Of a stretch of 64,000 nucleotides of DNA, positions 4,137 through 20,712 are shown piece by piece. Each line of letters starts with the position of its first letter. Positions within the stretch are counted from its first letter, which is position 1. Position numbers and translations under genes: made by a program. This stretch comes from Acidimicrobium ferrooxidans (lineage in GTDB: Bacteria > Actinomycetota > Geothermincolia > Fen-727 > Anoxymicrobiaceae): positions 1 to 64,000 of the forward strand of contig DYIU01000003.1 of NCBI GenBank assembly GCA_020723485.1, written 5' to 3'. Below the pieces are notes generated by a model. It saw only the letters and a program-made list of their open reading frames with translations. It was not told where the DNA came from and made no database searches.

Positions 4137-4760
4137 TCAGCCCTGTATGTCGGGATACGCCCCCCGGCACCGGCCGGCCCTGATGGCGGCCACCAGGTCG
4201 GCGTCGGTGCGGATATCGTCCTCGAAGACGGTGTAGCAGCGGCCGACCTGGAACTCGTGGTGGGCGTCACTCCCCCCGATTCCCGGCAGGCGGTGTATGC
4301 GCGCCAGATGGGCCGCTCCCTCGTTGCCGCCCGCCGTGCAGCCGCCGTTGTGGGTCTCGATTGCGTCGACGTTGCTCATCAGCCAGGTGACCTTGTCCGG
4401 TCCGTGGATGCGCTCCAGCTCGCCGGTCACCCGGCACGAGTGGGCCGGGGCGATGACGGCCCCCTGCGCGCGACAGGCCTCGAGCAGGTCCGCGAACGGG
4501 GTCTTCCATCCCGGGGCGTCCTCGTACAGCCCGAAGACGAGCATGTCACCGAACTCCGTGTATATCTCTATCCCCCTGAACACCGGGAACCCCAGCTGCC
4601 TGCCGAGCTCGCTCGTCACCTCTGCTCCAGCTATCTCGTCGTGCTCGGTCACGCAGATGGCGTCGAGACCGACCGCGCGCGCCCACTCGATCGCGCGCCG
4701 CGGGTGTATGAGACTGCACGGGGAGGAGACGGTCGTGTGTACGTGCAGGTCGATCTTCAA
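4137..4760 (-). CDS. PHP-domain metal-dependent phosphoesterase
   Basis: This is a 207-residue PHP-superfamily hydrolase. The metal-binding motifs are KIDLHVHTTVSS at the N terminus, VTEHDE around residue 42, APAHS in the middle and GIGGSDAHH near 165-175. This is the set used by stand-alone PHP phosphoesterases acting on nucleotides or other small phosphate monoesters and diesters. The reading frame runs on upstream, but the family fold begins exactly at the TTG at 4760. That TTG overlaps the TGA of the phospholipase C-like gene (TTTGA) and has a GGCGGGG ribosome site. Coupling to a phospholipase-like gene hints at headgroup or phosphoester turnover, which is inference. Confidence 0.78.
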   Translation of the reverse strand: MKIDLHVHTTVSSPCSLIHPRRAIEWARAVGLDAICVTEHDEIAGAEVTSELGRQLGFPVFRGIEIYTEFGDMLVFGLYEDAPGWKTPFADLLEACRAQGAVIAPAHSCRVTGELERIHGPDKVTWLMSNVDAIETHNGGCTAGGNEGAAHLARIHRLPGIGGSDAHHEFQVGRCYTVFEDDIRTDADLVAAIRAGRCRGAYPDIQG

Positions 4761-5671
4761 AGTGTCCCCGCCTTCGCGGAGGACGTGGACGCGGCGAAGT
4801 GCTCGATCAGCTGCGCCGTGCGTTCGGCCGCCCGGCACATCAGGTGGTTCCTGAGGGTGACCAGGTCCGCGAACCTGATCCTGGGGCTCGAGGGGAGGAA
4901 CCTGTGGTAAGGGTAGTACGGCTTCCCGATGTAGGTGCCCTGCCAACCGGAGCGCTTCCACCGGGGCTCCGTGTAGTAACGTTCGAGGACGTCCGCTATG
5001 TCGTTGCGCCTCTCGGGGTCGTCCGGCTCGCGGCCCCTGGATTCCCTGCCCACGGCCAGGAACAGCTCGAGGTGCGCGTCGTCGTGCCCGTGCTGTCGTG
5101 GCGGCTCGGGCGGCCGGAGGTAGAACCTCCGGGAGCAGGAGACCAGCTCGAGGTTGTCCGCGGTCCGGTTGGTCAGGCCGTGCATCACGCAGTGGGTATG
5201 AGCCGGCACGGCCATGTCCTGCAGGAGGTGGCAGCAGTAGCCCAGGAAAGTGAACGACTTGTAGAGGTTTCCTATGCGGTAGTGGGTGAGCGTCCTCTCC
5301 CAGAGGTCGCGGTACTCGTCGAAGGCGTTCACGAACCTGTCCTCGTCAATGCCACGCCCGGCGATCGGGTCGTAGAAGTGAGAGAACTCCCAGTCCAGGG
5401 CTCCCCCCACCCTGCCGAGGCTCTCTCCCTCGACCACGTCGAGCCGTCCGCACGCCTCCTCGATCAGCGCGCGGTTCCCTGCGACAGGCGAGCCGGCCTC
5501 TATGACGCTCTCCTTCAGCAGGTACCTCAAGGCCTGAGAAGCGAGGTTCCTGTGGTCGTCGCGGTGAAGGAGCGGTGTCCAGTAGCGCAGGTGACCGAAC
5601 CACCCGCCGGTTACGACCGTCAGGAGGCGCACTACCTGAACGGATGCGAGCATGCTATTCATGAGACCCAT
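4757..5671 (-). CDS. Zinc-dependent phospholipase C / P1 nuclease-like protein
   Basis: This 304-residue protein is probably a zinc hydrolase of the phospholipase C/S1-P1 nuclease fold. The main evidence is the helix LGYCCHLLQDMAVPAHTH near 145-162, matching the family pattern H-x3-D-x3-P-x-H. Further candidate ligands are the WGFGH-like start (GGWFGHLRYW) and the HRDDH at about 36. A hydrophobic stretch near the N terminus is too weak for me to call a signal peptide with confidence. It begins 27 bases after the PlsB-like gene and overlaps the PHP gene, so it belongs to the lipid operon. Phospholipid turnover is a reasonable role, but activity towards lipids is inferred from context. Confidence 0.66.
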   Translation of the reverse strand: MGLMNSMLASVQVVRLLTVVTGGWFGHLRYWTPLLHRDDHRNLASQALRYLLKESVIEAGSPVAGNRALIEEACGRLDVVEGESLGRVGGALDWEFSHFYDPIAGRGIDEDRFVNAFDEYRDLWERTLTHYRIGNLYKSFTFLGYCCHLLQDMAVPAHTHCVMHGLTNRTADNLELVSCSRRFYLRPPEPPRQHGHDDAHLELFLAVGRESRGREPDDPERRNDIADVLERYYTEPRWKRSGWQGTYIGKPYYPYHRFLPSSPRIRFADLVTLRNHLMCRAAERTAQLIEHFAASTSSAKAGTL

Positions 5672-5698: not shown

Positions 5699-8176
5699 TC
5701 AGCGCACGAGGAAAGAGCGGATGCGCCGTTCCAGGGCATCCCGCTCCTCGAAGCGCGGGCCGGGAAGGACCTCGACAGACTCCTTCCCGTCAGTAGCGCG
5801 GACGCGCCGCTCCTCGATGAGCCCCATGTCCCTGAAGCACCTCAGCGCGTTCTTGAAAGCAATCCTGCAGGGAGACTCTTCGCGCAAAATCACACCGTCA
5901 GCGAGCATGACCTCCGCGCTGTCGAAGCAGGCCTCGACCTGCTCGTCGAAGCCCACGGCCTCCCCGGGCTCGAGCCGCCCCAGGGCGGCACACGCGGCCA
6001 GGTATGCTTCCAGGTACGAGTCGAGAAGAGAGCACAGGGCATCCGAGTATGCACGGTGGTCGACCTTCAGCTCCTCGTCATCGCGGTCGGGGCTGAAGAT
6101 GAACTCGTGGGCGAACAGGCGTCTCAGGAAAGCTGAAGCGTCCCGCAGAGCGGACTCGTGGTCCTCGACGGAGCCGGACGACTTCCACGCCACCGCAGAA
6201 ATCGCCGGCACGAGGAAGTGCCCGAGGAGTATGTTCTTGTTGTACTCGAGGAAGCGCCTGCCGCTGCCGGCGACACGGTAGCCCTCCCCGTCGCCCGTCG
6301 CCTCGGGCGCGACGTGCCCCTCCAGGACGAACCACTCGACGGCCGCGCGTACCCCCCGTGCGTCGGCATCCGCCGAAAGCGGAAGCCTGCGGCGCTCGCA
6401 GAAACCGAGGAGCTCCCCGGAGACCCTCTCGAACGCCTCGGAGGATACCCAGGTCGTGCCCGGCGCCAGCAGGGCACACGCTGCGATGGACCGGGCGGTC
6501 ACGGGCGTCACCCGGTTAATGCCTTCCGACACTATCTCGGCGCATCCCTGGAGGCCGTGCTCCGCGAGCAGGCCCTTCATGCTCACAGGTGTGCCGAACT
6601 TCACGTAGGCCTTTCCCAGCCTCGTGTTCATCGACTTGTATATCCTGGTGAACATCTTCATGCTCTCGGAGACCTTGCGGCCGCCGGCCATCTCCCGTAC
6701 GTGGGCGGACTCCTCGGGCACCTTGTCGTAGCCCAGGTACACGGGCACCAGGGTTATGTCGGGGCAGACCCCGGCGTTGAGAGATTCCGCGAGTATATTG
6801 AGGTACCCGGTCTTCGGTCTCTGAAGCTTGCCGTCGCGGCTTCTCGTCCCCTCTATGTAGACCACGCTCATGTAGTTCTCGGCGAGCAGGTGCCGCACGT
6901 AGGCGCAGAAGACCTCCCGGTAGAGCGTCTCGCCTGCGAATGTCCGGCGAAGGTAGAAGGCGCCCGAGTGCCGCAGGAGCCATCCCACCGGCCAGAAGTT
7001 GAGGTTGAGCCCCGCCGCCTGCTGCGGTGGCACCATGCCGGAGCGGAACAGCGAGTACCCTATCAGCAGCGGGTCCATGTAGCTCTTGTGAGAGCAGACC
7101 AGCACGATACGGGAACGGCTGTCGCACTCGGAGAGGAACCGTATGCCCTCCCGATCTACCTCGAGCCCGTCCAGGAACTTGTCGAACGCGTAATCCACCG
7201 CCCGGCAGAAGTACCTCGCGACGCCGACCCGGTAGTCGGAGGCTATCTCGTCCAGGTACTCGCGCGCCTCCGCGGCGACCGCTTCTCTCGTTGAGCGTTC
7301 CCTCAGCGCGTAGTCCTGCATGTAAGCGGTCAGTACCGGGTCGGCCAGCACACGGCGCTTCACTTCCCAGTTCGGGGCCAGCGGCGGGCCGGTGCACGCG
7401 CGGCGCTCAGACTCGATGTTGCCGTTCAACTCGATCCGCAGAGCCGACGCCTGCGCGACGAGGTCGCCGCCGGGGTGCTCTTCGAGCCAGCTGGAGAGCA
7501 CCAGCGGTTTGCAGTTCTTCACGCGGGCCGTGCGAACCGTGCGGGCCCAGTTCGTGGCTTTCCTAAGCACGCGCAGGGGATGGAGCTTGTACACGCGGGT
7601 CGCCACCGTGGTCGCGGGAGCGTCCGGCGTGAGCTGGTGGTACGCGCGGACAACCGGCACAACCGTAAGCGCGACCTCGCTCTCACGCTGGATCGCGATG
7701 AGGGCCTCCAGGTCTCGGCTGAACTCTACGTCCTCGCTCCTGAGGCGGCCCAGCAGCCCGCCTTCCCCCCGCCTGGCCAGGCGGCTTCGCCTCCTGGCGG
7801 CGGCACCCCGGCGCGGCGCGCCCCTGCGCAGCCTGCCCCTGCGCCCCTCGGGCGGGTCCTCGATCACGTTGACCGGCCCGGTGTTCCGGAGCCTTGCCGC
7901 CAGGTAGAGCTTGTGGCGGTACCCCGCCTCGGGGAGCACGAACACGGCGAGTGGAGAGGCGATGACCCAGCTGGAGCGATGAGGCTCGCCCGAGAGAGCC
8001 CTGCCCCTGTACGTCCCCTGCTCGAGGGGCCGCATGATGAGAGAGAGTGCCTTCACGGCGAGGGCGCCAAGGGGATCGGGCTTCCACGCGAAGAAGCCCT
8101 GCACTATGTCGGAGGTCTCGCGGTAATCCAGCCCCCGTGAGGTTGTGACATCGAGTTCCTTCACGATGTTACTCAA
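5699..8176 (-). CDS. PlsB-type glycerol-3-phosphate acyltransferase, copy 2
   Basis: This protein of about 825 residues should transfer an acyl group to glycerol-3-phosphate in the first step of phospholipid synthesis. The four acyltransferase motifs are present: HKSYMD (363-368), GAFYLRR (405-411), YIEGTRSRDGK (440-450) and VPVYLGYDK (about 477). Length agrees with PlsB rather than with short PlsC enzymes. I chose the TTG at 8176 because it has GGAAGG-like spacing and gives the same 15-residue lead-in to LDYRETS as the paralogue. GTG at 8164 is the alternative. An arginine-rich insert at about 111-147 replaces a lysine-rich one in the neighbour. Its start overlaps the end of copy 1. Confidence 0.84.
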   Translation of the reverse strand: MSNIVKELDVTTSRGLDYRETSDIVQGFFAWKPDPLGALAVKALSLIMRPLEQGTYRGRALSGEPHRSSWVIASPLAVFVLPEAGYRHKLYLAARLRNTGPVNVIEDPPEGRRGRLRRGAPRRGAAARRRSRLARRGEGGLLGRLRSEDVEFSRDLEALIAIQRESEVALTVVPVVRAYHQLTPDAPATTVATRVYKLHPLRVLRKATNWARTVRTARVKNCKPLVLSSWLEEHPGGDLVAQASALRIELNGNIESERRACTGPPLAPNWEVKRRVLADPVLTAYMQDYALRERSTREAVAAEAREYLDEIASDYRVGVARYFCRAVDYAFDKFLDGLEVDREGIRFLSECDSRSRIVLVCSHKSYMDPLLIGYSLFRSGMVPPQQAAGLNLNFWPVGWLLRHSGAFYLRRTFAGETLYREVFCAYVRHLLAENYMSVVYIEGTRSRDGKLQRPKTGYLNILAESLNAGVCPDITLVPVYLGYDKVPEESAHVREMAGGRKVSESMKMFTRIYKSMNTRLGKAYVKFGTPVSMKGLLAEHGLQGCAEIVSEGINRVTPVTARSIAACALLAPGTTWVSSEAFERVSGELLGFCERRRLPLSADADARGVRAAVEWFVLEGHVAPEATGDGEGYRVAGSGRRFLEYNKNILLGHFLVPAISAVAWKSSGSVEDHESALRDASAFLRRLFAHEFIFSPDRDDEELKVDHRAYSDALCSLLDSYLEAYLAACAALGRLEPGEAVGFDEQVEACFDSAEVMLADGVILREESPCRIAFKNALRCFRDMGLIEERRVRATDGKESVEVLPGPRFEERDALERRIRSFLVR

Positions 8177-10775
8177 GCGCTTCACCTTCCGAGGCCTCCG
8201 CCGGCGCAACCTCTACAAAGCCCGCTATGCGGCTCTCCAGCGCGCCGAGCTCGGCGAAGTGGTCGCCGGGCACCAGCAGCCGCTCCTTTTCGTCCTCGCC
8301 GGGCAGCTCCGCGACGAGCCCCATCTTCCCGTAGCACTTGACCGCGTTCTTGAACGCGACCCGGGACATGGATTCCTCGCGGAGGATCGAGCCGTCCTTG
8401 AGCATCCGCTCACCTTCCTCGAAGCAGAGATCGACCGCCTGTTCCACGGTCACGGGCTTTTGCCCGGAAAGCGAGCGAAGCGCGCGGCTCGCTACCATGT
8501 ACCCTTCAAGGTAGGAGTCGAGGAGTGACGCGAGCACCCCCGCATACGACTGGTAGTCGAGTTTCCAGGCCTCGTCCGCCCGGCTCGGGCTGAAGACGAA
8601 CTCCTCGGAGAAGAGGTGCCTCAGGAAGCGGAACGACTCCTCGCTCCTGGGGTCCTCCCCTTCGTCACCTGCGGCGGCGCGCTCGACGACCGCCGCTATC
8701 GCCGGCTCCAGGAAATGAGAGAGCTGTATGTTCTTGTTGTACTCCAGGAAGCGGCGGTTGTACCCCTCGATCAGGTACCCTTCCTCGCCATCCCGCTCCT
8801 CCGGCACCACGTAGCCCTCCTCGGCGTACAGGTCCACCGCGGCAAGGATGCCCTCGAAGTCGGAGTCTACCGCCATCGGAAGCCGCCGCCGCTCGCAGTA
8901 GCGCAGCAGGTCGTTCACCGCCTGCTCGCAATCCGCACGCGGCACCCATGTGGCGCCCGACGCCAGCAGCGCGCACCCCGCGAGCGACCGGGCGGTGACC
9001 ACGGTTATCCTGTTTATCTCGTCGCAGGCGACCTCTGCGGCGCCCCTCAGGCCGTACTTGTCGAGCAGCCCCTTGAAGCTCATAGGCGTGCCGAACTTGA
9101 CGTAGGCTTTCCCCAGCCTGGTGCGCTGGGAGGAGATCATGCGCGTGAAGACGCCCATGGTCTCGGAGACCTTCCTCGTGCCGGCCATCTCCCTTACGTG
9201 TGACGCCTCGTCGGGGATCTTGTCGAAGCTCATGTATACCGGGACGAACGTGATGTCCGGGCAGATGCCTATACGGAGTGCGTCCTCCAGTATGCCGAGG
9301 TAGCCTATCTTGGGCTTGGCGAGCTTGCCGTCACGGCTGCGTGTCCCCTCGATGTAGACGACGCTCGTGTAGTTCTCCGCGAGCAGGTACCGGACGTAGG
9401 CGCAGAAGACCTCCTTGTAGAGGGTCTCGCCCATGAACGTCCGCCGGATGTAGAACGCCCCGGAGTGCCGGAGCAGCCAGCCCATCGGCCAGAAGTCCAT
9501 GTTCTGCCCGGCCGCCTGCTGCGGCGGGACCATCCCGGAGCGGAACATGGTGTAACCGATGAGCAGCGAGTCCGCGTAGCTCTTGTGGTCGCAGACGATC
9601 ACTATCCGTGAGCGGTTGTCGCATTCCGCGAGGAACCTGATGCCCTCCCGGTCGACGTCCACCCCCGTTGTCAACCTGTCGAAAAGGTAGTCGACCACCT
9701 TGCAGAAGTACCGGGCGACCCCCACCCTGTACTCCGACATGATCTCCTCGACAAACCCCCGGGCCTCGGACAGCACGGCTTCCCTGGTCATGCCCTCCCG
9801 TATCGCGAAGTCCTGCATGTACGCGGCCAGCACGGGATCGGCCAGGACGCGCTGCTTGACCTCCCACTTGGGCGGCAGCGGAGGTCCGGTGCACGCCCGG
9901 CGCTCGGACTCGATGTGGCTCATCAGCTCGATCCTCAGGGTGGATGCCTGGGCACAGAGGCTTTCGTCGGCCTGACCTTCGAGCCAGGCCGAGAGCACGA
10001 TGGGGCTGCAGTTCTTGACCCTCGCCGTGCGGACGGTGCGGGCCCAGTTCGTGGCCTTCCTGATGAGGTGCATCGGGTGGAACCGGTAGGCCTTGGAAGC
10101 CATGGTCGTCCGCGGAGCGTCCGGGATCAACTGGTGGTACGTCCTCGTCACCGGGACCACGGTCAGGGCGACCTCGCTCTCTCGCTGCAGCGCGATGAGG
10201 GCCTCGAGGTCGTAGTCGCAGCCGTCTCCGCCGCCCTCGTGGCGGTACGCCCGCGAGAGCCCGGCCTTGGTGAGCCTGCCGGCGTCGGGGCGCGGCTCCT
10301 CCTTCACCTTGCGCCGGCTGCGCTTTCCCCTGCCGTCACCTTCCCCGTGGCCGGCCGCCCCGCCCTCCGCGGCGGCCTTCTCCTTCTTCTTTGCGGACTT
10401 GTTGCGGTCCTTGCCTTTCGCCTTTTTCGCGCTCGCCCTCTGCACCTGCGGAGGGTCCTCGATTATGTTGATGGGGCCGGTGCTCCGGAGCCTCGCGGCG
10501 AGGAAGACCTTGTTGCGGTACTTCACCTCCGGAAGGACGAAGACCGTGAGCGGAGAGGCGATGACCCAGCTCGAGCGGTGAGGCTCACCGGAGAGGGCCC
10601 GTCCGCCGTACGTCCCCTGCTCGAGCGGCCGCATGAACGCCGACAGCGCCTTCACCACTACGGAGCTCACCGGGCCCGGTTTCCACGCGAAGAAGCCCTC
10701 GAGTATGTTGGACGTCTCCTGGTAGTCCAGCTTGTCCCGGGTCTCCCTTTCCTGGTCCACCACTTTCGATCTCAT
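8169..10775 (-). CDS. PlsB-type glycerol-3-phosphate acyltransferase, copy 1
   Basis: This 868-residue protein is a close paralogue of the next gene; more than half the residues are identical by eye over the full length. Acyltransferase motifs are HKSYAD (397-402, catalytic His and Asp), GAFYIRR (439-445), YIEGTRSRDGK (474-484) and VPVYMSFDKI (511-520). Residues about 112-165 form a lysine- and arginine-rich, probably disordered insert (KKAKGKDRNKSAKKKEKAA). The ATG at 10775 has a GGGGG ribosome site and lies 12 bases after the HgdB-like gene. Two tandem copies may differ in acyl donor, position or membrane site; the sequence does not decide between these. Confidence 0.86.
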   Translation of the reverse strand: MRSKVVDQERETRDKLDYQETSNILEGFFAWKPGPVSSVVVKALSAFMRPLEQGTYGGRALSGEPHRSSWVIASPLTVFVLPEVKYRNKVFLAARLRSTGPINIIEDPPQVQRASAKKAKGKDRNKSAKKKEKAAAEGGAAGHGEGDGRGKRSRRKVKEEPRPDAGRLTKAGLSRAYRHEGGGDGCDYDLEALIALQRESEVALTVVPVTRTYHQLIPDAPRTTMASKAYRFHPMHLIRKATNWARTVRTARVKNCSPIVLSAWLEGQADESLCAQASTLRIELMSHIESERRACTGPPLPPKWEVKQRVLADPVLAAYMQDFAIREGMTREAVLSEARGFVEEIMSEYRVGVARYFCKVVDYLFDRLTTGVDVDREGIRFLAECDNRSRIVIVCDHKSYADSLLIGYTMFRSGMVPPQQAAGQNMDFWPMGWLLRHSGAFYIRRTFMGETLYKEVFCAYVRYLLAENYTSVVYIEGTRSRDGKLAKPKIGYLGILEDALRIGICPDITFVPVYMSFDKIPDEASHVREMAGTRKVSETMGVFTRMISSQRTRLGKAYVKFGTPMSFKGLLDKYGLRGAAEVACDEINRITVVTARSLAGCALLASGATWVPRADCEQAVNDLLRYCERRRLPMAVDSDFEGILAAVDLYAEEGYVVPEERDGEEGYLIEGYNRRFLEYNKNIQLSHFLEPAIAAVVERAAAGDEGEDPRSEESFRFLRHLFSEEFVFSPSRADEAWKLDYQSYAGVLASLLDSYLEGYMVASRALRSLSGQKPVTVEQAVDLCFEEGERMLKDGSILREESMSRVAFKNAVKCYGKMGLVAELPGEDEKERLLVPGDHFAELGALESRIAGFVEVAPAEASEGEALE

Positions 10776-10787
10776 CGAATGACCCCC

Positions 10788-11909
10788 TCAAGCTCCTGCT
10801 GCCGCCCGGGCGTGGGCGCCCCGGGCCAGCTTTCTTTCCCTGTTGCTCCACGCCAGGTCGACGAGCGCCTCGAGCCTGGTCTGCATCCCGGCGCGCCCGG
10901 TCTGCTCGTCGATCGAGATCGAGAGGATCGGCATCTCGAACTCGCCGGCTATGCGCACGAAGACCGTCTTCGCGATGACCTCGGGCAGGCAGGTGAACGG
11001 GAAGAAGTGCACTACCGCGTCGAAGCCCCGGCGGGCGTAATCCGCGGTCGCGGCGACATTCACGTGGCCGTGACCGCCTATCTCGTGGCACACGTACGGT
11101 GAAGCCGCACTCTCTATCATCCGGTCATCGAAGCCCAGGACGGGGTGGCCGCCCGGCGTGAATATGTCCGAGGTGTAGAGCGAGCGCTCGACCGCCGCGT
11201 CCCTCCTCGCGAGCCAGTTCAGTATGTCGAAATTGAAGTACGGTTCCATGCTCACCAGCATCTCGCCGACCACTCCCACGCGAAGGTGGGGTCTTTCGTC
11301 GTCGAGGGCCACCCGGCCGAACAGACGCCTGGCCAGAACCCCGGCTTCCTCGATCTCGGCTTTGCTGATGGCAGCCGATAGCGCTTCCCTCGACTCCGCC
11401 GCGGCCTGGTCTACCGCCCCCTCCTCGGCCTCGAGGGCGCGCAGCGCCATGGCCCGCTTCTCTATCTCGTCCAGGGCCCTCCCCTTGCGGAGCGCCAGCG
11501 CCACCTGGCGGAGCATGCCCACCAGCCCGGTTCGGGACTCCGGCAGGAGCGCCCGCAGGTTGTTGTAGAACTCGCGGGGGGTATCCCGCGGCGAGTCGAA
11601 CGTCAGGAGCCGGAACCTGTACCCCTCCCTCTCGAGAATCCTCTTCTGTATCTCGGCGAAGTAGTTGAACCGGCACGGGCCGTACCCCGCCACCATGACC
11701 AGGGTATCCGCCCCGCTCTCCAGGGCCTCGACCGCGCTGCCGATGAGGACCTTCATGGGGAAGCAGACGAGCTCCGGGGCGAGAGTCACCCCTATCTCGA
11801 CGGTCCGCTCGCTGTACTCCGGCGTCTCCACGTAGCCGAGCCCAAGCCTGTCGCAGAGGTCCCTGGCCATGAACTGGAGGCTGCCGCACCTCGGCACGTT
11901 TATGTTCAC
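10788..11909 (-). CDS. HgdB/COG3581-type putative iron-sulfur protein, copy 1
   Basis: This 373-residue protein resembles the D-component (HgdB-like) part of 2-hydroxyacyl-CoA dehydratase and activase fusion proteins (COG3581 type). Three cysteines shared with the second copy are C49 (LVCFPMK), C79 (GYGPCRFNYF) and C307 (FPFTCLPEVIAK); they are likely ligands of a [4Fe-4S] cluster. A GTG start overlaps the TGA of the DUF2229-type gene and has a GGAGGTG ribosome site. Neither this gene nor its partner carries the BadF/BadG ATPase domain that normally precedes them in single-chain proteins. The position between gpsA and two acyltransferase genes points to lipid modification rather than amino acid fermentation. 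Confidence 0.75.
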   Translation of the reverse strand: MNINVPRCGSLQFMARDLCDRLGLGYVETPEYSERTVEIGVTLAPELVCFPMKVLIGSAVEALESGADTLVMVAGYGPCRFNYFAEIQKRILEREGYRFRLLTFDSPRDTPREFYNNLRALLPESRTGLVGMLRQVALALRKGRALDEIEKRAMALRALEAEEGAVDQAAAESREALSAAISKAEIEEAGVLARRLFGRVALDDERPHLRVGVVGEMLVSMEPYFNFDILNWLARRDAAVERSLYTSDIFTPGGHPVLGFDDRMIESAASPYVCHEIGGHGHVNVAATADYARRGFDAVVHFFPFTCLPEVIAKTVFVRIAGEFEMPILSISIDEQTGRAGMQTRLEALVDLAWSNRERKLARGAHARAAAGA

Positions 11910-12853
11910 GGCCCACCTCCGCGCGGACGACGTCCCGGGGGGGCCGTCCTGGAGATGTGCTTCAGCATGTCGAGGAAAGCCTCGATCCTGGTGAGCAGTC
12001 CCGCCTCGGCGGAATGCTCGTCGAGCGTGACGCTCATCAGTGGGATTGACGGCCTCCGGGAGAACTCGTCCTCGATCAGGGCGCCTATCATGGACCCAGG
12101 CCCGCAGGCGAACGAGTTGACGTAGACCACGCCTTCCACCGAGGCGGTGCGGCTCCAGTGGAGCACGGCCCCCACGATACGGTTCTCGAAATCCCAGCGT
12201 ATCTTGCGGTCGAGCGTCCTCAGCTGCCGCCTCACGTCCCGCCTGGGGACCTGCTCCACCGTCACCGGCTCCGCTCCCATGCTCCGGACGCGGTCGAGCA
12301 GGCCCAGCGAGACCCGCTCGTCGTACACGTTGTACAGGTGGCCTGCGACCCCGACCGGGAACCCCGTCGGCTCACCGGCCGAGCGCTGAGGCTCCAGCGG
12401 CCTCAGGGAGTCAAGCATCCGGCTGACCGCTTCCGCGGCGGCCTTTCCCGTCGCCCCGAGGTCACGCGCCAGGCGGCGCCATTCCTCCGTCCACCGCCCG
12501 CGCCGGTCCGCGAGGTCCATCAACGGTGAGAGCACGGGCGGGAGCTCGCCGCCCATGGAGCGCGCCATGTCGGGAAGTCCCAGGTACTTGGGGCACGCCT
12601 TGGTCCCCCGGTGCTGGCTGATCACCCGGGGCACCAGCACGGCGTCCACTTTTTCTCTGAGCTCGAGAAGGTGGCCCGTGAACACCTTGACCGGGAGGCA
12701 CGTCTCGTTATCGGCGTGGACCGCTCCGGACACCACGACCTCACCGGTCGTCGAGGCGGAGATCACGGGCTCGATGCCTATCGAGTCCAGGAACGAGGTC
12801 CAGCCCTCACCGTAGTGGTGGAACAGAAGCGCCCTGGGCAGGCCGACCTTCAA
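11906..12853 (-). CDS. DUF2229/COG3580-type activase-related protein, copy 1
   Basis: This 315-residue protein matches the domain (DUF2229, COG3580) that in fused activase proteins lies between the BadF/BadG ATPase and the HgdB-like part. Conserved features are the start MKVGLPRALLFHHYGE, the motif HADNETCLPVKVFTGH with C52, KACPKYLGLPD with C87, and NSFACGPGSMIG with C250. Three cysteines again suggest a metal cluster. The start is a TTG (12853) preceded by GGGTGGGCG. It is coupled to the following HgdB-like gene by a GTGA overlap. The same gene pair occurs upstream, so this pair is a tandem duplication. Substrate unknown. Confidence 0.75.
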   Translation of the reverse strand: MKVGLPRALLFHHYGEGWTSFLDSIGIEPVISASTTGEVVVSGAVHADNETCLPVKVFTGHLLELREKVDAVLVPRVISQHRGTKACPKYLGLPDMARSMGGELPPVLSPLMDLADRRGRWTEEWRRLARDLGATGKAAAEAVSRMLDSLRPLEPQRSAGEPTGFPVGVAGHLYNVYDERVSLGLLDRVRSMGAEPVTVEQVPRRDVRRQLRTLDRKIRWDFENRIVGAVLHWSRTASVEGVVYVNSFACGPGSMIGALIEDEFSRRPSIPLMSVTLDEHSAEAGLLTRIEAFLDMLKHISRTAPPGRRPRGGGP

Positions 12854-12973
12854 CGAACGCCCACCCCCAGTCTCGCGATTGTCCTCTTGACGCCAACCAT
12901 CATAACACCCCGCTGCCCGCTGAAGCCCCGACCCTCCCGTGCTTAGATCGCGGCCTGACCCTGGTTTAAGGTC
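12854..12973. other. Intergenic gap inside the lipid operon
   Basis: This 120-base gap separates the two HgdB/DUF2229 gene pairs. On the minus strand it contains TATGAT (12899-12904), a possible -10 box, but no convincing -35 box at the right distance. A GCCTGACCCTGGTTT stretch near 12952 resembles half of the GGGTCAG element, without a second arm. No gene is visible. Confidence 0.35.
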
Positions 12974-14089
12974 TCACGCCCGGGCCCGGGACTCCGCCAG
13001 GCCGCGGACGAACTTTCTCTTGCTCCAGGCCAGGTCGAGCAGCGCCTCCAGCCTGGTCTCGACCCCGGCCCTGCCGGTCTGCTCGTCGATGGAGAGGGAG
13101 AGTATCGGGACGTCGAGCTCGGCGGCCACCCGGCTCAGGACCCCCTTGGCGATGACCTCCGGCATGCACGTGAACGGCAGGAAGTGAACGATCGCGTCGA
13201 ACCCTCTCCTGGCGAATATGACAGATGCTCCGACCGTGAGCAGCCCGTCCCCGCCGACCTCGTGGCTGAGGTACGGCTCCGCCGCCTGGGCGACTGCCTG
13301 CTCCGTGTAGCCGAACACCGGGTTCCTCCCCATCGGAACCACGGTGTCCGCGATGTTCACGGCGCGCTCCACCACCACTCCCCGCCGTCCCATCCAGTGC
13401 TCGATGTCGAAGTTGAAGAACGGCTCGAGGACCACGAATATCTCACCCACCAGCCCCACCCTGAGGTACGGCCGCGCGTTGTCGACCGGGACCTGCCGCA
13501 TGCGCTCCTCGGCCTCGAGCCTGGCCACCTCGATCTCTTTGCGCGTATAGGCCCCGGACACTATTCCCTGCGCCTCCGCCAGGGCCTCGTCAGTGGCCCC
13601 CGGCTCCGTCTCCAGGCCGCGGAGCGCCATGGCCCTCTTCTCGAGCTTGTCGAAGACCACCACCTTAGACATGGTCCTGGCAAGCTCATTCAAGAGCACG
13701 CCCAGCCTGACGTGCTCCCTGGGCAGTAGAGACCTGAGGCTGTCATGGAACGCCTTGATACCTACCGACGGGGGCTCGAGGACCACCATTCTGAAGCTCT
13801 TACCCTCACGCTCCAGGATCCGCCGCTGTATCTCGCCGTAGTAGCCAAAGCGGCAGGGACCGTGGCCGCCGCCGGTCACCAGCGTGTCGGCCCCCAGCTC
13901 GAGCACCTGGACGAAGCTCCCCAGCACCGCCTTCAGGGGAAGGCAGGCGAACTCCGGCGCCAGCGCGGAGCCGATCTCCATGGTCTCCTCGCTGAACACC
14001 GGGGTCTCGACCGTCTCGAGGCCCAGCCGCCACGCGAGGTCACGAATGATGAGAGAGAGGTTGCCCATCCTGGGAACGGCTATCTTCAC
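12974..14089 (-). CDS. HgdB/COG3581-type putative iron-sulfur protein, copy 2
   Basis: This 371-residue paralogue of the gene at 10788 is colinear throughout. It keeps the three cysteines C49 (FACLPLK), C79 (GHGPCRFGYY) and C308 (LPFTCMPEVIAK) and the central PFFNFDIEHW motif. The GTG start overlaps the TGA of the DUF2229-type gene upstream. Divergence from copy 1 is substantial (roughly half identical by eye), so the duplication is old and the two pairs probably have different partners or substrates. Like copy 1 it lacks an ATPase domain, so any ATP-dependent electron activation must come from another gene. Confidence 0.74.
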   Translation of the reverse strand: MKIAVPRMGNLSLIIRDLAWRLGLETVETPVFSEETMEIGSALAPEFACLPLKAVLGSFVQVLELGADTLVTGGGHGPCRFGYYGEIQRRILEREGKSFRMVVLEPPSVGIKAFHDSLRSLLPREHVRLGVLLNELARTMSKVVVFDKLEKRAMALRGLETEPGATDEALAEAQGIVSGAYTRKEIEVARLEAEERMRQVPVDNARPYLRVGLVGEIFVVLEPFFNFDIEHWMGRRGVVVERAVNIADTVVPMGRNPVFGYTEQAVAQAAEPYLSHEVGGDGLLTVGASVIFARRGFDAIVHFLPFTCMPEVIAKGVLSRVAAELDVPILSLSIDEQTGRAGVETRLEALLDLAWSKRKFVRGLAESRARA

Positions 14090-15045
14090 GAGCGCACCCC
14101 CTGGGCGCCCCCGACAGAGAGGCCTCCGGGCGAAGACCGCCTGGCCCTCCTGAGCATGTCTATGAAAGCCTCCAGCCTCGTTATGAGGCCGGCCTCAGCC
14201 GCGTGCTCGTCCAGGGTTATCGTCATGAGGGGGACCGAGCCCTCGCGCCCCAGCTGGTCCTCCAGCAGCGCGCCGACTATCGACCCGGGGCCGCAGGCGA
14301 ATGACGTCACGTAGAGTATCCCCGCCACCGAGCGCGTGCGGCTCCAGTGGAGGACGGCGCCCGCCAGCCTGCTCTCGTAGCCCCAGAATATCCGCCTGGA
14401 GAGGGTCTCGGCCTGCATCCTGGCCCGGCTCGGGACGACCTGGTCCACCGTTACCGGATTGGCTCCCATGCTCTTCACCCGGTCCAGGAGGCCGAGCGAC
14501 GCCCTGGAGTCATGCACGTTGTACAGGTGCCCGGCCACCCCAACCGTCATCCCCTCGGCCGCGGGTCTGGCCCTCGCCTGGACCCTGTGTTTCTCGAGCC
14601 CGTACAGGAGCCCGGCAACGGCCGACGCGGACGCGAGCCTCGTGCCTCCCAGCGCGCGTGCCACGGAGTACCACTCTCGGGCCCACAGGTATCGGCGGTC
14701 GGCAAGGTGGATCCTCGGCGCGAGGACGGGTGGAAGGTCCGGGTCGAGCGCCCGGGCCAGGTCGGGAAGGCCCATGAACTTGGGGCATGCCAGTGTGCCG
14801 TACTGCTCGCTCACCACCCTCGGCACCAGGACCACATCCACCCGTTCCTTCAACCATATTATGTGACCGGAGAACACCTTCACCGGCAGGCAGGTCTCGT
14901 TGTCGGCGTGCACCGCGCCGCTCGTGATGATGTCGGGCGTGGTCGCCTCCGACACGACGGCCTCCACGCCCAGCGTCTCCAGGAAGTTCAGCCAGTACTC
15001 ACCGTAGTGGTGGAAGAGCATTGCTCGCGGTATCCCCACCTTCAT
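14086..15045 (-). CDS. DUF2229/COG3580-type activase-related protein, copy 2
   Basis: This 319-residue protein is a paralogue of the gene at 11906, with MKVGIPRAMLFHHYGEYW at the start, HADNETCLPVKVFSGH (C52), LACPKFMGLPD (C87) and TSFACGPGSIVG (C251). An in-frame extension to 15093 exists, but the conserved family start is the ATG at 15045, which overlaps the TGA of gpsA (ATGA). It is therefore translationally coupled to glycerol-3-phosphate dehydrogenase. That coupling is the strongest local evidence that these activase-like proteins serve glycerolipid chemistry. Confidence 0.75.
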   Translation of the reverse strand: MKVGIPRAMLFHHYGEYWLNFLETLGVEAVVSEATTPDIITSGAVHADNETCLPVKVFSGHIIWLKERVDVVLVPRVVSEQYGTLACPKFMGLPDLARALDPDLPPVLAPRIHLADRRYLWAREWYSVARALGGTRLASASAVAGLLYGLEKHRVQARARPAAEGMTVGVAGHLYNVHDSRASLGLLDRVKSMGANPVTVDQVVPSRARMQAETLSRRIFWGYESRLAGAVLHWSRTRSVAGILYVTSFACGPGSIVGALLEDQLGREGSVPLMTITLDEHAAEAGLITRLEAFIDMLRRARRSSPGGLSVGGAQGVRS

Positions 15046-16151
15046 TCCGAGGCCACCCCCATCCCGCGTCGGAGGCCCAGCGAGGCCGCCCACTGCTCAC
15101 CCCGTCGTTGCCTCCCACGCTCCCCGGCCTGCTCGAGGCTGCAGGCGGCATCGAGGATTGCCCTCGGCTGGTCCGCTCCCGCCATCACCGACCACACGGC
15201 CTCGAGCAGGCGAAGCCTGAGGCCGAGGGCGCGGCTCCTGCGGACCGCCTCCTGCGCGGTCTGCGCTCCCTCCCGGACCCCCCGCACTTCCTCCCTGCTC
15301 CCCGCGCCGCCGGCGAGTATGCGCCCGAGGTCGTGGTTCCTGCTGAGCGGCGAGCCGCATGTCGCAACGAAGTCTCCTACACCGGCCGGCGTCATCACCA
15401 CGCCGGGGTCGCCCCCGACGGCCTCCGCGAAAACTGATGTCTCATCGAGCCCCCGCCAGATGAGGGTCCCCATCACGTTGTCCCCCCACCCCATGCCCGC
15501 CGCAAGCCCGCAGCCGACGGCGTAGACGTTCTTGAGGGCGCCCGCAGCCTGGGCTCCAAGGGGGTCATGGTGACCGCGAAGGCTCAGCAGTGGGTGCGAC
15601 AGTGCGGTGACCGCGCTCCTCACGTCCGCGGGCTCCACTCCGGCCAGCAGGGACACCGCCGGCATCCCCGCGCATATCTCGCGGGCGAGGTTCGGCCCGG
15701 AGAGCACCATCGCGTCACGGCAGGTCCGCCTCCCCTGAGAGCCCATTTCCTGTCGCCAGACCTCTATGCTCAAGAGCCCGCTGCCGACCTCCAGGCCCTT
15801 GGTCGCAAGGACAGTTGGCAGCCTTTCGGCGAAGAGGCCCTTCATGCTGCGGGCGACCTCCCGGGCCGCTTGCGAAGGCACCGCCACTATCACCCAGTCA
15901 GCTCCGTCGAGAGCGCGCTCGAGGGCGGTCGTCGGGAAGACGTTGGGCGGGAGCCTGAAATCGTCCAGGTACCGCTCGTTGGAGTGGAAACGCGTTATCT
16001 CCTCGCAGCTGTCGACCTCGGGGGTGTACAGGTTGACGCGGCGGAAGTTCTCCGCCTGGAGCGCGGCCAGGGTCGAGCCCCAGCACCCCGCGCCTATCAA
16101 GGCAAGGGTCGACCGCGCGCCGTCCGTTTGTTCGTCGTTTCTACCGCTCAT
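15042..16151 (-). CDS. gpsA: NAD(P)-dependent glycerol-3-phosphate dehydrogenase
   Basis: This enzyme of about 369 residues reduces dihydroxyacetone phosphate to sn-glycerol-3-phosphate, the backbone for phospholipids. The nucleotide-binding motif LIGAGCWGSTLA is near residue 18. ATKGLE, SGPNLAREI and the substrate-binding GALKNVYAVGCGLAAG motif follow in family order. I take the ATG at 16151 (MSGRNDEQ) because the dinucleotide fold starts soon after and GCAGGTG precedes it; the frame is open to 16259. It differs from typical GpsA in GWGDN for GLGDN and in a longer, Arg-rich C terminus. It lies 61 bases downstream of an anti-sigma gene and overlaps the DUF2229 gene. Confidence 0.88.
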   Translation of the reverse strand: MSGRNDEQTDGARSTLALIGAGCWGSTLAALQAENFRRVNLYTPEVDSCEEITRFHSNERYLDDFRLPPNVFPTTALERALDGADWVIVAVPSQAAREVARSMKGLFAERLPTVLATKGLEVGSGLLSIEVWRQEMGSQGRRTCRDAMVLSGPNLAREICAGMPAVSLLAGVEPADVRSAVTALSHPLLSLRGHHDPLGAQAAGALKNVYAVGCGLAAGMGWGDNVMGTLIWRGLDETSVFAEAVGGDPGVVMTPAGVGDFVATCGSPLSRNHDLGRILAGGAGSREEVRGVREGAQTAQEAVRRSRALGLRLRLLEAVWSVMAGADQPRAILDAACSLEQAGERGRQRRGEQWAASLGLRRGMGVASE

Positions 16152-16212: not shown

Positions 16213-16611
16213 TCAGGCGGAACCGGCGGGCGCCAGTCCGTCGTCGTTCTCGCGTCCAAGGACCCACCGGACTATAGCCAGCGCGACGGCCACCGCCACC
16301 CCGAAGCCCGCCGCGCCCGCGACGAGGATGAGGTTGCGCCGACCGTGCTCCTCGGCCTCCGCGTGCTGTTCAACCGCGTTTATCCCTGTCACCAGACAGG
16401 CCATGACCAGGTCGACCAGGTCGGCCGGAGGAGGTACCTGGTCGAGCTCGGCCAGCGCCTGCACGACGGCTTCCATCCTCCTGAGCCTGGAGCCGCACGG
16501 GTCGCACTTCCTGGCGTGGCGGCGCAGCAGCAGCCACTTGACGCGGCCCAGCTCGCCGTCCCCGAGCTCCTCTATGGCGTCGATAGCCCGCACGCAATCG
16601 GTGTCCATCAA
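16213..16611 (-). CDS. Zinc-finger anti-sigma factor with one membrane helix
   Basis: This protein of about 132 residues should hold the adjacent sigma factor inactive. The N-terminal part has the anti-sigma zinc finger signature HARKCDPCGSRL (H-x3-C-x2-C) at about 32-43. A C-terminal hydrophobic segment (LILVAGAAGFGVAVAVALAI, about 94-113) would anchor it in the membrane with a short outer tail. The start could be TTG 16611 (nine bases after GGAG) or the adjacent ATG 16608. It starts directly after the stop of the sigma gene, the usual arrangement for an ECF/anti-sigma pair. Confidence 0.8.
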   Translation of the reverse strand: MMDTDCVRAIDAIEELGDGELGRVKWLLLRRHARKCDPCGSRLRRMEAVVQALAELDQVPPPADLVDLVMACLVTGINAVEQHAEAEEHGRRNLILVAGAAGFGVAVAVALAIVRWVLGRENDDGLAPAGSA

Positions 16612-16612
16612 G

Positions 16613-17230
16613 CTAGACCACTCCTTCCAGGGTCTCGCAGAGGAGTCCCCTCGCCCGGTGCCCCCAGGTCTTCGCGGTGTTCCGCGGCACCCCCAGCACC
16701 TTCCCGATCTCGGAGTAACTCAAGCCTTCCATATGGTGCAGTACGATTACCGCCCTGTAGTTATCCGGCAGTCCGTCGAGGGCATCCCACACGATGCCGG
16801 CCGTCTCACGCGACAGGCTGACGTTCTCCGGAATGTCCTCTTCCGACCCCCGCAGCTCGATCACCACGCCCATGCCGCCGCCTCCACGGGGAGCCTCCCC
16901 CGCCGCAACGGCGATCTCGACAGGCACGTCGGTGAACCTGCCCCTGCGCCGCAGGTGGTCGATCGCCGCGTTGGTCCCGATGCGGTAAAGCCAGGACCTA
17001 AAGGACATGCGCGTGTTGAACGTCTCGATCCCCTCGTACGCCCTGACGAACGTCTCCTGGGCCAAGTCCCTGGCCTCCTCTCGGTCTCCGACCATCCGGT
17101 AAGCGATGCTGTAGACCGGGCCCTGGTACCTGCGTACCAGCTCCTCGAACGCGGAGTTGTCGCCCTCCCGGCATCTCTTCACCAGGCGGACGTCCTCGCG
17201 CCCGTCCCGGGACAACCTCGAATTAGGCAT
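16613..17230 (-). CDS. ECF-family sigma factor (RpoE/SigW-like)
   Basis: This sigma factor of about 205 residues has region 2 motifs FEELVRRYQGPVYSIAYRMV and ARDLAQETFVRAYEGIETF with SWLYRIGTNAAIDHLRRR, and a region 4 helix-turn-helix (LSYSEIGKVLGVPRNTAKTW). The linker between the two is unusually long, with a glycine run (GEAPRGGGGMG). The ATG at 17230 has AAAGGAC just upstream and is preferred over ATG 17260. It is the first gene of the minus-strand run that continues into gpsA and the acyltransferases, so membrane stress may control lipid synthesis here. The stimulus is not visible. Confidence 0.88.
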   Translation of the reverse strand: MPNSRLSRDGREDVRLVKRCREGDNSAFEELVRRYQGPVYSIAYRMVGDREEARDLAQETFVRAYEGIETFNTRMSFRSWLYRIGTNAAIDHLRRRGRFTDVPVEIAVAAGEAPRGGGGMGVVIELRGSEEDIPENVSLSRETAGIVWDALDGLPDNYRAVIVLHHMEGLSYSEIGKVLGVPRNTAKTWGHRARGLLCETLEGVV

Positions 17231-17265
17231 GCCCGTCCTTTTTTCCCGACCTGTAAGCATTGCTC

Positions 17266-17294
17266 TATTCTTGCTATACGCAGACCCGTGTCAA
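17266..17294 (-). promoter_or_regulatory. Possible promoter of the sigma/anti-sigma/lipid operon
   Basis: A perfect TTGACA on the minus strand (17289-17294) is followed at 17 bases by AGAATA, a poor -10 box. Alternatively the operon may use an ECF promoter that I cannot recognise. Weak prediction. Confidence 0.28.
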
Positions 17295-17341
17295 GTGGTT
17301 TCAAATTCCCCGAAACAACCCGAAAACCTGCGCTGCACAGA

Positions 17342-17419
17342 GGGGTCAGGTCACTTTGTTGCGTTTGATGCTTCCGCTCGGTCGCACACCCTGAAAACGC
17401 AACAAAGTGACCTGACCCC
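17342..17419. repeat. REP-like inverted-repeat element, copy 2
   Basis: Perfect 25-bp arms (17342-17366 and 17395-17419; left arm begins GGGGTCAGGTCACTTTGTTG) flank a 28-bp spacer between the divergent sigma-factor and glpD genes. Both arms differ from copy 1 in matching positions, so pairing has been kept while the sequence changed. Unlike the other two copies, it lies between divergent genes, so a terminator role is unlikely here. Confidence 0.88.
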
Positions 17420-17502
17420 GATGTTGCATTATGATTGTTTCGTGGCCGGAAACGGGTACGTTTCCAGGGCCCGCCATGTGACACCACTGGAGGTGCAGAT
17501 AA

Positions 17503-19149
17503 ATGGAGAGATCCAGGGAAGACAACATCAGGAAGCTGAAGACAACGGGATATGACGTCCTTGTGATAGGAGGCGGGATCACAGGGGCCTGCATCGCCCG
17601 CGACGCGGCGCTGCGGGGTTTCTCGGCCGCCTGCGTAGACAAGAACGACTGGGCCTGGGGCACCAGCAGCCGCTCGTCCAAGATGATTCACGGGGGCATA
17701 CGTTACCTCGAGATGTTCGACTTCAAGCTCGTCTTCGAGGCGTGCCGCGAGAGGCGCCAGCTTCTGTTGAACGCCCCCCACCTGGTCTACCCGCAGCCGT
17801 TCTTCTTCCCCATCTACAAGGGAGACAAGAACGGCATCTTCATGATCGAATCCGGGTTGATACTCTACGACATCCTGGCCCTCTTCAGGAACGTGAAGCC
17901 GCACAGGATGTACCTGCACGACCGGGCCATGGAGCTCGAGGAAGGGCTCGACTCAGATACGCTGAAGGCAGCGGGAATCTTCTACGACTGCTCCACGGAC
18001 GACGCGCGCCTGACGCTGGCGTTCGCCCTGACCGCCCTCGACGACGGAGCGGACGGCGCGAACTACGTCGAGGTGACGAGCCTCCTCAAGGAAAAAGAGT
18101 GCGTGCGGGGAGCGCGGGTCCGGGACGTGCTCTCCGGCGACGAGTTCGATATCGAGGCCAGGGTCGTGGTCAACGCATCCGGGGCATGGGGGGACCAGGT
18201 ATGCGGCCTGGACGAGCCGGGAGCCCCGGAGAAGCTCCAGCTCACAAAGGGCTCGCACATAATGGTGCCCCGCGCCAGGGCCCGCACCCGGAACGCCCTC
18301 CCGATAGTCTCCCCCGAGGACAAGCGGATGATGTTCCTCATCCCGAGGGGCCAGTTCTCGCTCATCGGGACCACGGACATCTACTACCACGAGGACCTCG
18401 ACAACCCGTACGCGACCCGGGACGAGGTCGAGTACATACTGGAGGCCGCGAACACCGCGATGCCGCGCGCCCACCTCGACAAGGCGGACATCGTAAGCAC
18501 CTACTCCGGCCTGAGGCCGCTCGCCATGCAGGAAGGCGGCGAGGACGTGGCCGCGAGCGCCGTCTCCCGCGAGCACCGCATCTACGCCGGGCACTCCGGG
18601 CTTCTAACGATAGCCGGCGGCAAGCTCACGACCGCCCGCTCGATGGCGGAGGAGATGGTGGACATGGTAGCGCGCAAGCTCTTAAAGGAATTCGGCGTAA
18701 AGGCGAAGACCGGCTGCCGGACAATGAACAACCCGATACTCGGGACCCCCGCGCCCGACACGGTCGCCCGGGTCCGGGCGCTGTCGGCGAAGCTCAAGTT
18801 CGACGATGACGTGCTCACGGGGCTGCTGAAGCAGGGCACCGACGCTCTCAAGGTGCTCGCCCTCTGCGACGAAGACCCGGCTCTCGCCGAAAGGCTCGCA
18901 CCCGAGGCCCCGCACATAAAGGCTCAGGTGCGCTTCGCCGCCGAGAGCGAGATGGCGCACACGCTGGACGACTTCCTCGTCCGGCGCACCGAGATCTACT
19001 ACACCGCCACAGACCAGGGCCTCTCCGTCGCGGAGGAGGTAGCGCGCCTGATGGGCGAGTACCGCGGCTGGGACGCGTCGGAGCGCGAGCGCCAGGTGGA
19101 AGCCTACAGGGCCACCGTCGCCCTCTCCAGGCGTTACGCCGAGGGTTAG
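17503..19149 (+). CDS. glpD: FAD-dependent glycerol-3-phosphate dehydrogenase
   Basis: This 548-residue flavoprotein oxidises glycerol-3-phosphate to dihydroxyacetone phosphate and passes electrons to the quinone pool or another acceptor. The FAD-binding motif VIGGGITGACIARDAA is at about 21-36. The family stretch SSKMIHGGIRYLE is near 63-75, and the second motif IYAGHSGLLTIAGGKLTT lies before the C-terminal domain. Length is normal. GGAGGTG lies 7 bases before the ATG. Together with GpsA on the other strand the cell can move carbon both ways between glycolysis and the glycerol phosphate pool. It could have the anaerobic or aerobic electron acceptor; the sequence does not settle this. Confidence 0.92.
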   Translation: MERSREDNIRKLKTTGYDVLVIGGGITGACIARDAALRGFSAACVDKNDWAWGTSSRSSKMIHGGIRYLEMFDFKLVFEACRERRQLLLNAPHLVYPQPFFFPIYKGDKNGIFMIESGLILYDILALFRNVKPHRMYLHDRAMELEEGLDSDTLKAAGIFYDCSTDDARLTLAFALTALDDGADGANYVEVTSLLKEKECVRGARVRDVLSGDEFDIEARVVVNASGAWGDQVCGLDEPGAPEKLQLTKGSHIMVPRARARTRNALPIVSPEDKRMMFLIPRGQFSLIGTTDIYYHEDLDNPYATRDEVEYILEAANTAMPRAHLDKADIVSTYSGLRPLAMQEGGEDVAASAVSREHRIYAGHSGLLTIAGGKLTTARSMAEEMVDMVARKLLKEFGVKAKTGCRTMNNPILGTPAPDTVARVRALSAKLKFDDDVLTGLLKQGTDALKVLALCDEDPALAERLAPEAPHIKAQVRFAAESEMAHTLDDFLVRRTEIYYTATDQGLSVAEEVARLMGEYRGWDASERERQVEAYRATVALSRRYAEG

Positions 19150-20537: not shown

Positions 20538-20638
20538 CACATTCCTGTCACGAAGCCCCGGCACTCCGGCGCAGCGGCGGCCACTGTGATTTGGACGGCC
20601 GCGCCCGCGCGCGCGTTTCCGGGTCCTCGAAAAGCGAG

Positions 20639-20660
20639 GTCCCCCACTGCCGTGGGGGAC
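20639..20660 (-). terminator. Hairpin after the sortase substrate gene
   Basis: A perfect 9-bp stem with a 4-base loop (GTCCCCCAC-GGCA-GTGGGGGAC on the minus strand) follows the surface-protein stop by about 50 bases. It is followed by a small CTCGCTTTTCGAG hairpin rather than a clean T run. It may end or reduce transcription into the sortase gene. Confidence 0.45.
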
Positions 20661-20712
20661 CCCCCTGCTCTATCTGTCAGACCGCCCCTCACCAGGGAGT
20701 GACGTGCGTTTG

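Follow-up and report, generated by a model that had tools for sequence, protein, structure and literature searches.

A candidate split-type glycerol-ester reductase in a probable phospholipid-entry operon of an uncultured actinobacterial family

Introduction

The closest described relatives of the system reported here include the plasmalogen synthase PlsA/PlsR of Clostridium perfringens, which occurs as a fused PlsA in Listeria and others, and the glycerol ester reductase Ger of Thermotoga maritima and Desulfatibacillum alkenivorans, described as a homologue of PlsA to which two activation domains are fused (PMC13274423). Here, we describe a 64,000 nucleotide (nt) stretch of DNA (contig C11:1-64000, hereafter the window) from a member of an uncultured actinobacterial family, in which two gene pairs of the DUF2229 and HgdB types, homologous to the catalytic parts of PlsA/PlsR, lie in one run of genes with gpsA and two plsB-type genes. 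Enzymes of the benzoyl-CoA reductase/2-hydroxyacyl-CoA dehydratase (BCR/HAD) type are ATP-activated iron-sulfur proteins, most of which have two catalytic subunits, each with its own bound cluster; a DUF2229-HgdB pair offers two such subunits.

The genome (3.36 Mb, 11 contigs, 95% complete) was analyzed against a class comparison set of 31 genomes and a family set of nine. With moderate confidence, we lean towards reading the locus as a phospholipid-entry operon with a built-in PlsA/PlsR-like ester reductase that would be energised by an unlinked BadF-type ATPase, give rise to ether lipids, and stand under SigW-like stress control.

Results

Two predicted reductase pairs between gpsA and plsB

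Twelve consecutive minus-strand genes extend from 17260 down to 2409, in the order extracytoplasmic function (ECF) sigma, putative anti-sigma, gpsA, DUF2229-a, HgdB-a, DUF2229-b, HgdB-b, plsB1, plsB2, phospholipase-C-like, PHP, and acyl-CoA ligase. The genes from gpsA to plsB2 were as follows.

15042..16151, minus strand: gpsA, NAD(P)H glycerol-3-phosphate dehydrogenase (Pfam GpsA domains, E 8e-36 and 1e-31)
14086..15045, minus strand: DUF2229-a, predicted PlsA-DUF2229-like [4Fe-4S] reductase subunit (PF09989 DUF2229, E 7.5e-33; invariant C52, C87, and C251)
12974..14089, minus strand: HgdB-a, predicted PlsR-like [4Fe-4S] reductase subunit (profile comparison and structure; invariant C49, C79, and C308)
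11906..12853, minus strand: DUF2229-b, second pair (PF09989, E 6.8e-31; 59% identity to DUF2229-a; three cysteines kept)
10788..11909, minus strand: HgdB-b, second pair (53% identity to HgdB-a; three cysteines kept)
8169..10775, minus strand: PlsB1, glycerol-3-phosphate acyltransferase type (motif blocks HKSYAD, GAFYIRR, EGTRS, and VPVY all intact)
5699..8209, minus strand: PlsB2 (62% identity to PlsB1; motif blocks intact; TTG start uncertain)

As a preliminary description of this DNA had stated, gpsA overlaps DUF2229-a and the latter overlaps HgdB-a, by 4 nt each; DUF2229-b and HgdB-b overlap by 4 nt as well. Remaining gaps in the run ranged from -41 to 120 nt, including a 41 nt overlap of PlsB1 and PlsB2, provided that the TTG start of the latter is correct, 12 nt between HgdB-b and PlsB1, and 120 nt between HgdB-a and DUF2229-b. 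The second pair and the two tandem PlsB-type genes were likewise found on the same strand as described, and the run extends beyond them on both sides, such that the ECF sigma, putative anti-sigma, phospholipase-C-like, PHP, and acyl-CoA ligase genes, together with a divergent glpD, are additions to that account.

Alignments of 42-43 homologues showed three invariant cysteines in each of the DUF2229 and HgdB proteins. Profile references, taken from plasmid-collection records, were the fused PlsA-type proteins of Listeria, Collinsella, Haliovirga, and Acetoanaerobium and the two-gene form of Fusobacterium. Listeria monocytogenes reportedly makes plasmalogens (PMC9702350), so that its PlsA is a fair reference. 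The DUF2229 proteins matched the DUF2229 part of PlsA over nearly the full length (hhalign 99.9%, E 6.5e-37) and the HgdB proteins matched the PlsR part over 339 columns (99.7%, E 3.7e-25), with all six cysteines of the pair collinear with those of the PlsA/PlsR-type references. The HgdB-type proteins fell under every Pfam cut-off, so that their identity rests on the profile comparison and on structure, and HGD-D scores reached 22.6 and 27.3 bits for DUF2229-a and DUF2229-b against a curated cut-off of 28.4, with those of HgdB-a and HgdB-b lower still. AlphaFold2 models had mean predicted local distance difference test scores of 91.7 and 92.7, and their confident PDB matches were mainly DCCP, HadBC, BzdNO, and MbdON.

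In phylogenetic reconstruction, the window pairs nested in a "split" clade common to the triads of many anaerobes. The window genome yielded neither a fused PlsA nor a Ger, nor any fused or double activase with DUF2229. A third DUF2229-HgdB pair (C3:615319-617396; L035:5311-7403) belonged to a separate orthologous group and had no lipid neighbours.

An unlinked BadF-type ATPase

The window holds no BadF-type ATPase, and the preliminary description had reasoned that one must be encoded elsewhere; this holds, because such a gene was found at C5:917669-918655 (L036:7667-8656). It is one of four BadF-type proteins in the genome and stands alone among replication and ribosomal genes. Its product carries a C-terminal CxxCxxxC...C tail of the PlsA type, and is 31% identical over 319 amino acids to the second ATPase domain plus tail of Listeria PlsA and 65-70% identical to the BadF proteins encoded directly after DUF2229-HgdB in most triads of other actinobacterial classes. 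The C5-type BadF was present in all nine family genomes (80-89% identity in the other eight) and in 26/31 genomes of the class; G123 and G322, which have no DUF2229-HgdB pair whatever, are also without it. The third pair, on contig C3, could share this activase.

Conservation in the family and sister families

The order gpsA-DUF2229-HgdB-PlsB recurred in six other family members (L071, L073, L074, L076, L077, and L078), with 58-73% protein identity to the window for gpsA, DUF2229, and HgdB. One of these clusters, L078, ends within PlsB at a contig end, while the other five are complete, and L077 resembles the window in having both pairs and both PlsB copies. With the window genome counted, seven family clusters cover the whole stretch from gpsA to plsB, and gpsA, a pair, and PlsB stood together in six of them; put differently, the gpsA-plsB cluster was kept in 6/6 complete family relatives checked, with the pair between the two genes in 5/6. 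Since it recurs in this way, the arrangement is more than chance. All b pairs formed one group within the family, with an ultrafast bootstrap (UFB) value of 100, and therefore a single duplication is the simplest origin of b. In the sister families, the orthologous pair came after another ECF sigma and two further genes, one for a short protein and one for an acyl carrier protein (ACP); the latter was present in 12/12 loci when two neighbourhood sets were combined (PP-binding, E 2.4e-11).

Entry into phospholipid synthesis

The window gpsA is the sole clear gpsA in its genome, the remaining matches having E 2.6e-6 or weaker. PlsB1 and PlsB2 have the acyltransferase domain and matched GPAT_C (E 2.7e-36 and 6.4e-36), with scores under the NCBIfam PlsB equivalog cut-offs, and the PlsB motif blocks are common to acyltransferases of the glycerol-3-phosphate type and of the dihydroxyacetone phosphate (DHAP) type (GNPAT). 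Among the 31 class genomes, PlsY was absent from eight of the nine family genomes, which are exactly those with a- or b-type pairs, and in which PlsB therefore appears to have taken over the place of PlsY. G304, the remaining family genome, has PlsY but lacks both PlsB and a window-type pair; all 22 class genomes outside the family have PlsY, and PlsB (GPAT_C) was confined within the class to the order of the window family. The corresponding 2x2 table of PlsY absence against window-type pairs (8/0/0/23) gives a formal p of 1e-7, which overstates independence because the genomes are related. From the sole gpsA and the distribution of PlsY and PlsB, we infer that the family enters phospholipid synthesis mainly through this operon.

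Sigma factor and candidate promoter

Three features lie at the head of the run.

16613..17260, minus strand: ECF sigma, SigW-like, first gene of the run (Sigma70_r2, E 1.3e-24)
16213..16611, minus strand: putative zinc-finger anti-sigma with one membrane helix, assigned from HxxxCxxC and a hydrophobic segment (conserved beside the sigma gene in the family)
17277..17303, minus strand: promoter-like motif TGAAAC-N17-CGTA, upstream of the sigma gene

The top NCBIfam match of the sigma factor was SigW, at 154 bits, below the equivalog cut-off of 209, and the anti-sigma candidate had no Pfam hit. In all seven family sequences, window included, a TGAA-containing -35 and a CGTA -10 element, with a spacing of 17 nt, directly preceded the sigma gene. 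Allowing up to one mismatch, the motif had a single site in the window, where chance alone would give 1.18; its weight therefore lies in its conservation, and the site count was dropped as evidence. We take the motif to be akin to the Bacillus subtilis SigW promoter. SigW alters the fatty-acid composition of B. subtilis under membrane stress (PMC8144471). The sigma factor probably autoregulates its operon, which may also be induced by envelope stress. A second candidate for an autoregulated promoter is a GGTAACCA ... GTGTTTATAAT block that is conserved in the sister families (L079-L090), where it lies upstream of their other ECF sigma.

Flanking genes

The remaining genes of the run and its divergent neighbour were the following.

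4757..5671, minus strand: probable zinc-dependent phospholipase-C-like protein, a weak assignment (conserved downstream neighbour; SHxxDP and HLLQDMAVPxHT conserved)
4137..4769, minus strand: PHP-domain metallohydrolase (conserved downstream neighbour)
2409..4049, minus strand: long-chain acyl-CoA ligase type (conserved downstream neighbour; 80-82% identity in G210 and G080)
17503..19149, plus strand: glpD-type FAD glycerol-3-phosphate dehydrogenase (divergent, family-conserved neighbour; 75-83% identity in L071, L077, and L234)

The phospholipase-C-like protein matched PF00882 at E 0.01-0.15 in four orthologues, every score being under the cut-off, and the glpD-type gene scored 328 bits against the NCBIfam GlpD cut-off of 360. 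Between the sigma gene and glpD (17337-17424) lies an inverted repeat with 30 nt arms and the core GGTCAGGTCACTTTGTTGCGTTT, which may be a dispersed repeat because the motif recurs at L233:12971. Further along, a class-E-type sortase adjoins a large SdrD-like repeat protein with a terminal LPVTG sorting signal (19881-22944), and at the other end (118-2299) a second ECF sigma-like gene is followed by a protein resembling FecR-type regulators, with fibronectin-like repeats.

Discussion

A proposed route to ether lipids

In the route that we propose, GpsA would make sn-glycerol-3-phosphate, which PlsB1 and PlsB2 would acylate. Each DUF2229-HgdB pair would form a two-subunit [4Fe-4S] enzyme of the BCR/HAD type, with its electrons energised at the cost of ATP by the stand-alone C5 BadF-type ATPase, and would reduce the ester carbonyl of an acyl glycerolipid to an alkyl ether or, by dehydration, to a vinyl ether. 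The SigW-like ECF sigma, probably driving its own operon, would then raise ether lipids under envelope stress. A bolder version, which we consider unlikely, would build ether-lipid formation into the obligatory start of the pathway: PlsB would have replaced PlsX/PlsY, the two pairs, matched to the two PlsB, would reduce different ester positions, and the sigma factor would switch synthesis from ester to (di)ether.

Several points weigh against the proposed route. No split-type pair has a known product, and what PlsA homologues lacking the activation domain do is described as unclear in a 2026 paper (PMC13274423). Clostridial reduction and plasmalogen formation are late, acting on finished phospholipids and not on early intermediates (PMC9702350), such that the gpsA/plsB neighbourhood neither proves the substrate nor implies an early one. 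G210 (L234) retains the genes for sigma, anti-sigma, GpsA, PlsB, the phospholipase-like and PHP proteins, and the ligase, but has no pair a at this place; this genome carries pair b on another contig, and G080 likewise has pair b elsewhere (L072). The fused PlsA references grouped in a separate clade (UFB 100) that excluded every split pair. Finally, 19 of 25 Bacillota loci have the triad beside spoIIA-sigF (spoIIAA-spoIIAB-sigF) and/or spoVA (spoVAC-AD-AE-AF) genes, a spore-operon setting that could point to another function.

The tree also limits how the pairs are to be named. The preliminary description had connected them to PlsA/PlsR as split and duplicated parts; full-length homology and the setting in a glycerolipid entry operon agree with this, but the pairs are not a split-up PlsA or Ger. 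We file them as a predicted split-type PlsA/Ger-like glycerol-ester reductase, a new variant orthologous to neither, because the catalytic parts and the cysteine pattern are present while the ATPase fusion and a placement in the PlsA clade are not.

Alternative explanations

The pairs might belong to the lipid pathway without making ethers, acting by radical reduction or dehydration on the acyl chain of an acyl-ACP or acyl-CoA that PlsB later uses, with altered unsaturation or formation of an aldehyde or alcohol as example outcomes. Three points speak for this: in the sister families an ACP gene immediately precedes the orthologous pair, the window has an acyl-CoA ligase gene downstream, and the fold family acts mainly on acyl-CoA thioesters. 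Yet the full-length homology is to PlsA/PlsR, whose known substrate is a glycerolipid ester, and the operon holds no other fatty-acid synthesis gene, and we regard it as rather unlikely. Ether lipids could also come from an AGPS-type route, in which an alkyl-DHAP synthase works with a PlsB/GNPAT-like DHAP acyltransferase and the pairs do something else. PlsB and GNPAT are one acyltransferase family, and the genome encodes a full-size AGPS homologue (E 1e-86 to Dictyostelium AGPS vs 3e-25 to the best non-AGPS protein). However, the gene is unlinked to the operon and equally present in genomes without the pairs (G123, which has none, and G304, which lacks the window type), and AGPS homologues are also found in actinobacteria not known for ether lipids. 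We therefore consider this route distinctly unlikely as an account of the pairs, although a second way to ether lipids may exist, given that the homologue occurs in 29/31 class genomes. In the window genome, it lies at L233:6756-8456 (contig C2), near an HgdC-type activase, an acyl-CoA ligase, and HGD-D genes.

A third explanation takes the pairs for ordinary subunits of a 2-hydroxyacyl-CoA dehydratase or an aromatic-CoA reductase in amino-acid or aromatic catabolism, placed beside lipid genes by chance; it is highly improbable. Superfamily and fold are the same and the genome has many canonical HGD-D proteins, but those sets lie elsewhere with their own HgdC/Bcr-type activases, the HGD-D scores of the pairs are under the cut-off, and the gpsA-plsB neighbourhood is kept through the family. 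The pairs have no activase of their own or catabolic genes alongside, their neighbours being lipid genes. The preliminary description had set its proposal against closest homologues in amino-acid-fermentation HGD-D/activase operons; none were found, and a catabolic dehydratase operon was rejected in view of the separate canonical loci for amino-acid/aromatic HGD-D enzymes and activases. One other locus on contig C2 (L038:3112-8743), which encodes two long HGD-D paralogues and two BadF activases beside a BzdN/DCCP-like protein, is a possible aromatic-CoA reductase.

Split triads in other lineages

Triads of DUF2229, HgdB, and BadF genes, annotated as acyl-CoA dehydratase activase-related protein, 2-hydroxyacyl-CoA dehydratase, and activase, occur in several settings. 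In nine loci of Thermoleophilia-type metagenome-assembled genomes, among them L168:5851-12498, the triad comes immediately after genes for a family-4 glycosyltransferase, a polysaccharide deacetylase, and an LPG_synthase_TM protein, a possible glycolipid link. In other actinobacterial classes, it was near NfnAB-like and heat-shock genes; dnaK-clpB linkage was rejected as functional proof, as there is a gap of ~0.9 kb in L106 and the linkage could be inherited synteny. The Bacillota spore loci (L206:9200-12279 and 18 others between L189 and L216) often stand before lysA, and some hold the pair only. This setting suggests that the split reductase has a role in spores, perhaps in spore membrane lipids. 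Among the papers searched, none joined spoVAF with 2-hydroxyglutaryl-CoA dehydratase, and nothing pertinent came up on DUF2229, a plsA-gpsA link, or a spoVA link. Membrane and stress themes recur across the triads, and direct lipid links are found only in the window family and its sister families.

The locus gives a testable genetic answer on PlsA homologues without an activation domain: split parts, a separate activase, and, in one family, a tie to phospholipid entry and an ECF sigma. Should the proposed route be true, uncultured anaerobic actinobacteria would join the candidate makers of bacterial ether lipids, and the wider set of actinobacterial candidates would bear on the origin of ether lipids in anoxic settings.

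Comparison with known systems

Like PlsA/PlsR, the window pairs have full-length DUF2229 and PlsR-type catalytic parts with six collinear cysteines, and the BadF activase has the same cysteine-rich tail as PlsA. Unlike PlsA/PlsR, the parts are separate genes, there are two pairs, and the one ATPase domain is on another contig; the pairs also lie outside the fused clade and inside a gpsA-plsB operon headed by an ECF sigma. With Ger they share the superfamily and the proposed ester-to-ether reduction, but the window genome has one separate activase, and we set the pairs apart from Ger by its description.

The DCCP/DCCP-R, HadBC/HadI, and BzdNOPQ enzymes, BCR/HAD members with solved structures, have the same fold, three-cysteine cluster sites, and ATP-driven activase, but are only 9-17% identical, use CoA-ester or small-molecule substrates, and have no lipid genes. 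The split triads of Bacillota and Actinomycetota have orthologous subunits (HgdB ~37-47% identity) and an orthologous activase. These have spoVA, heat-shock, NfnAB-like, or glycosyltransferase genes as neighbours, whereas in the window the activase is outside the cluster, the pair is duplicated, and gpsA and plsB adjoin it.

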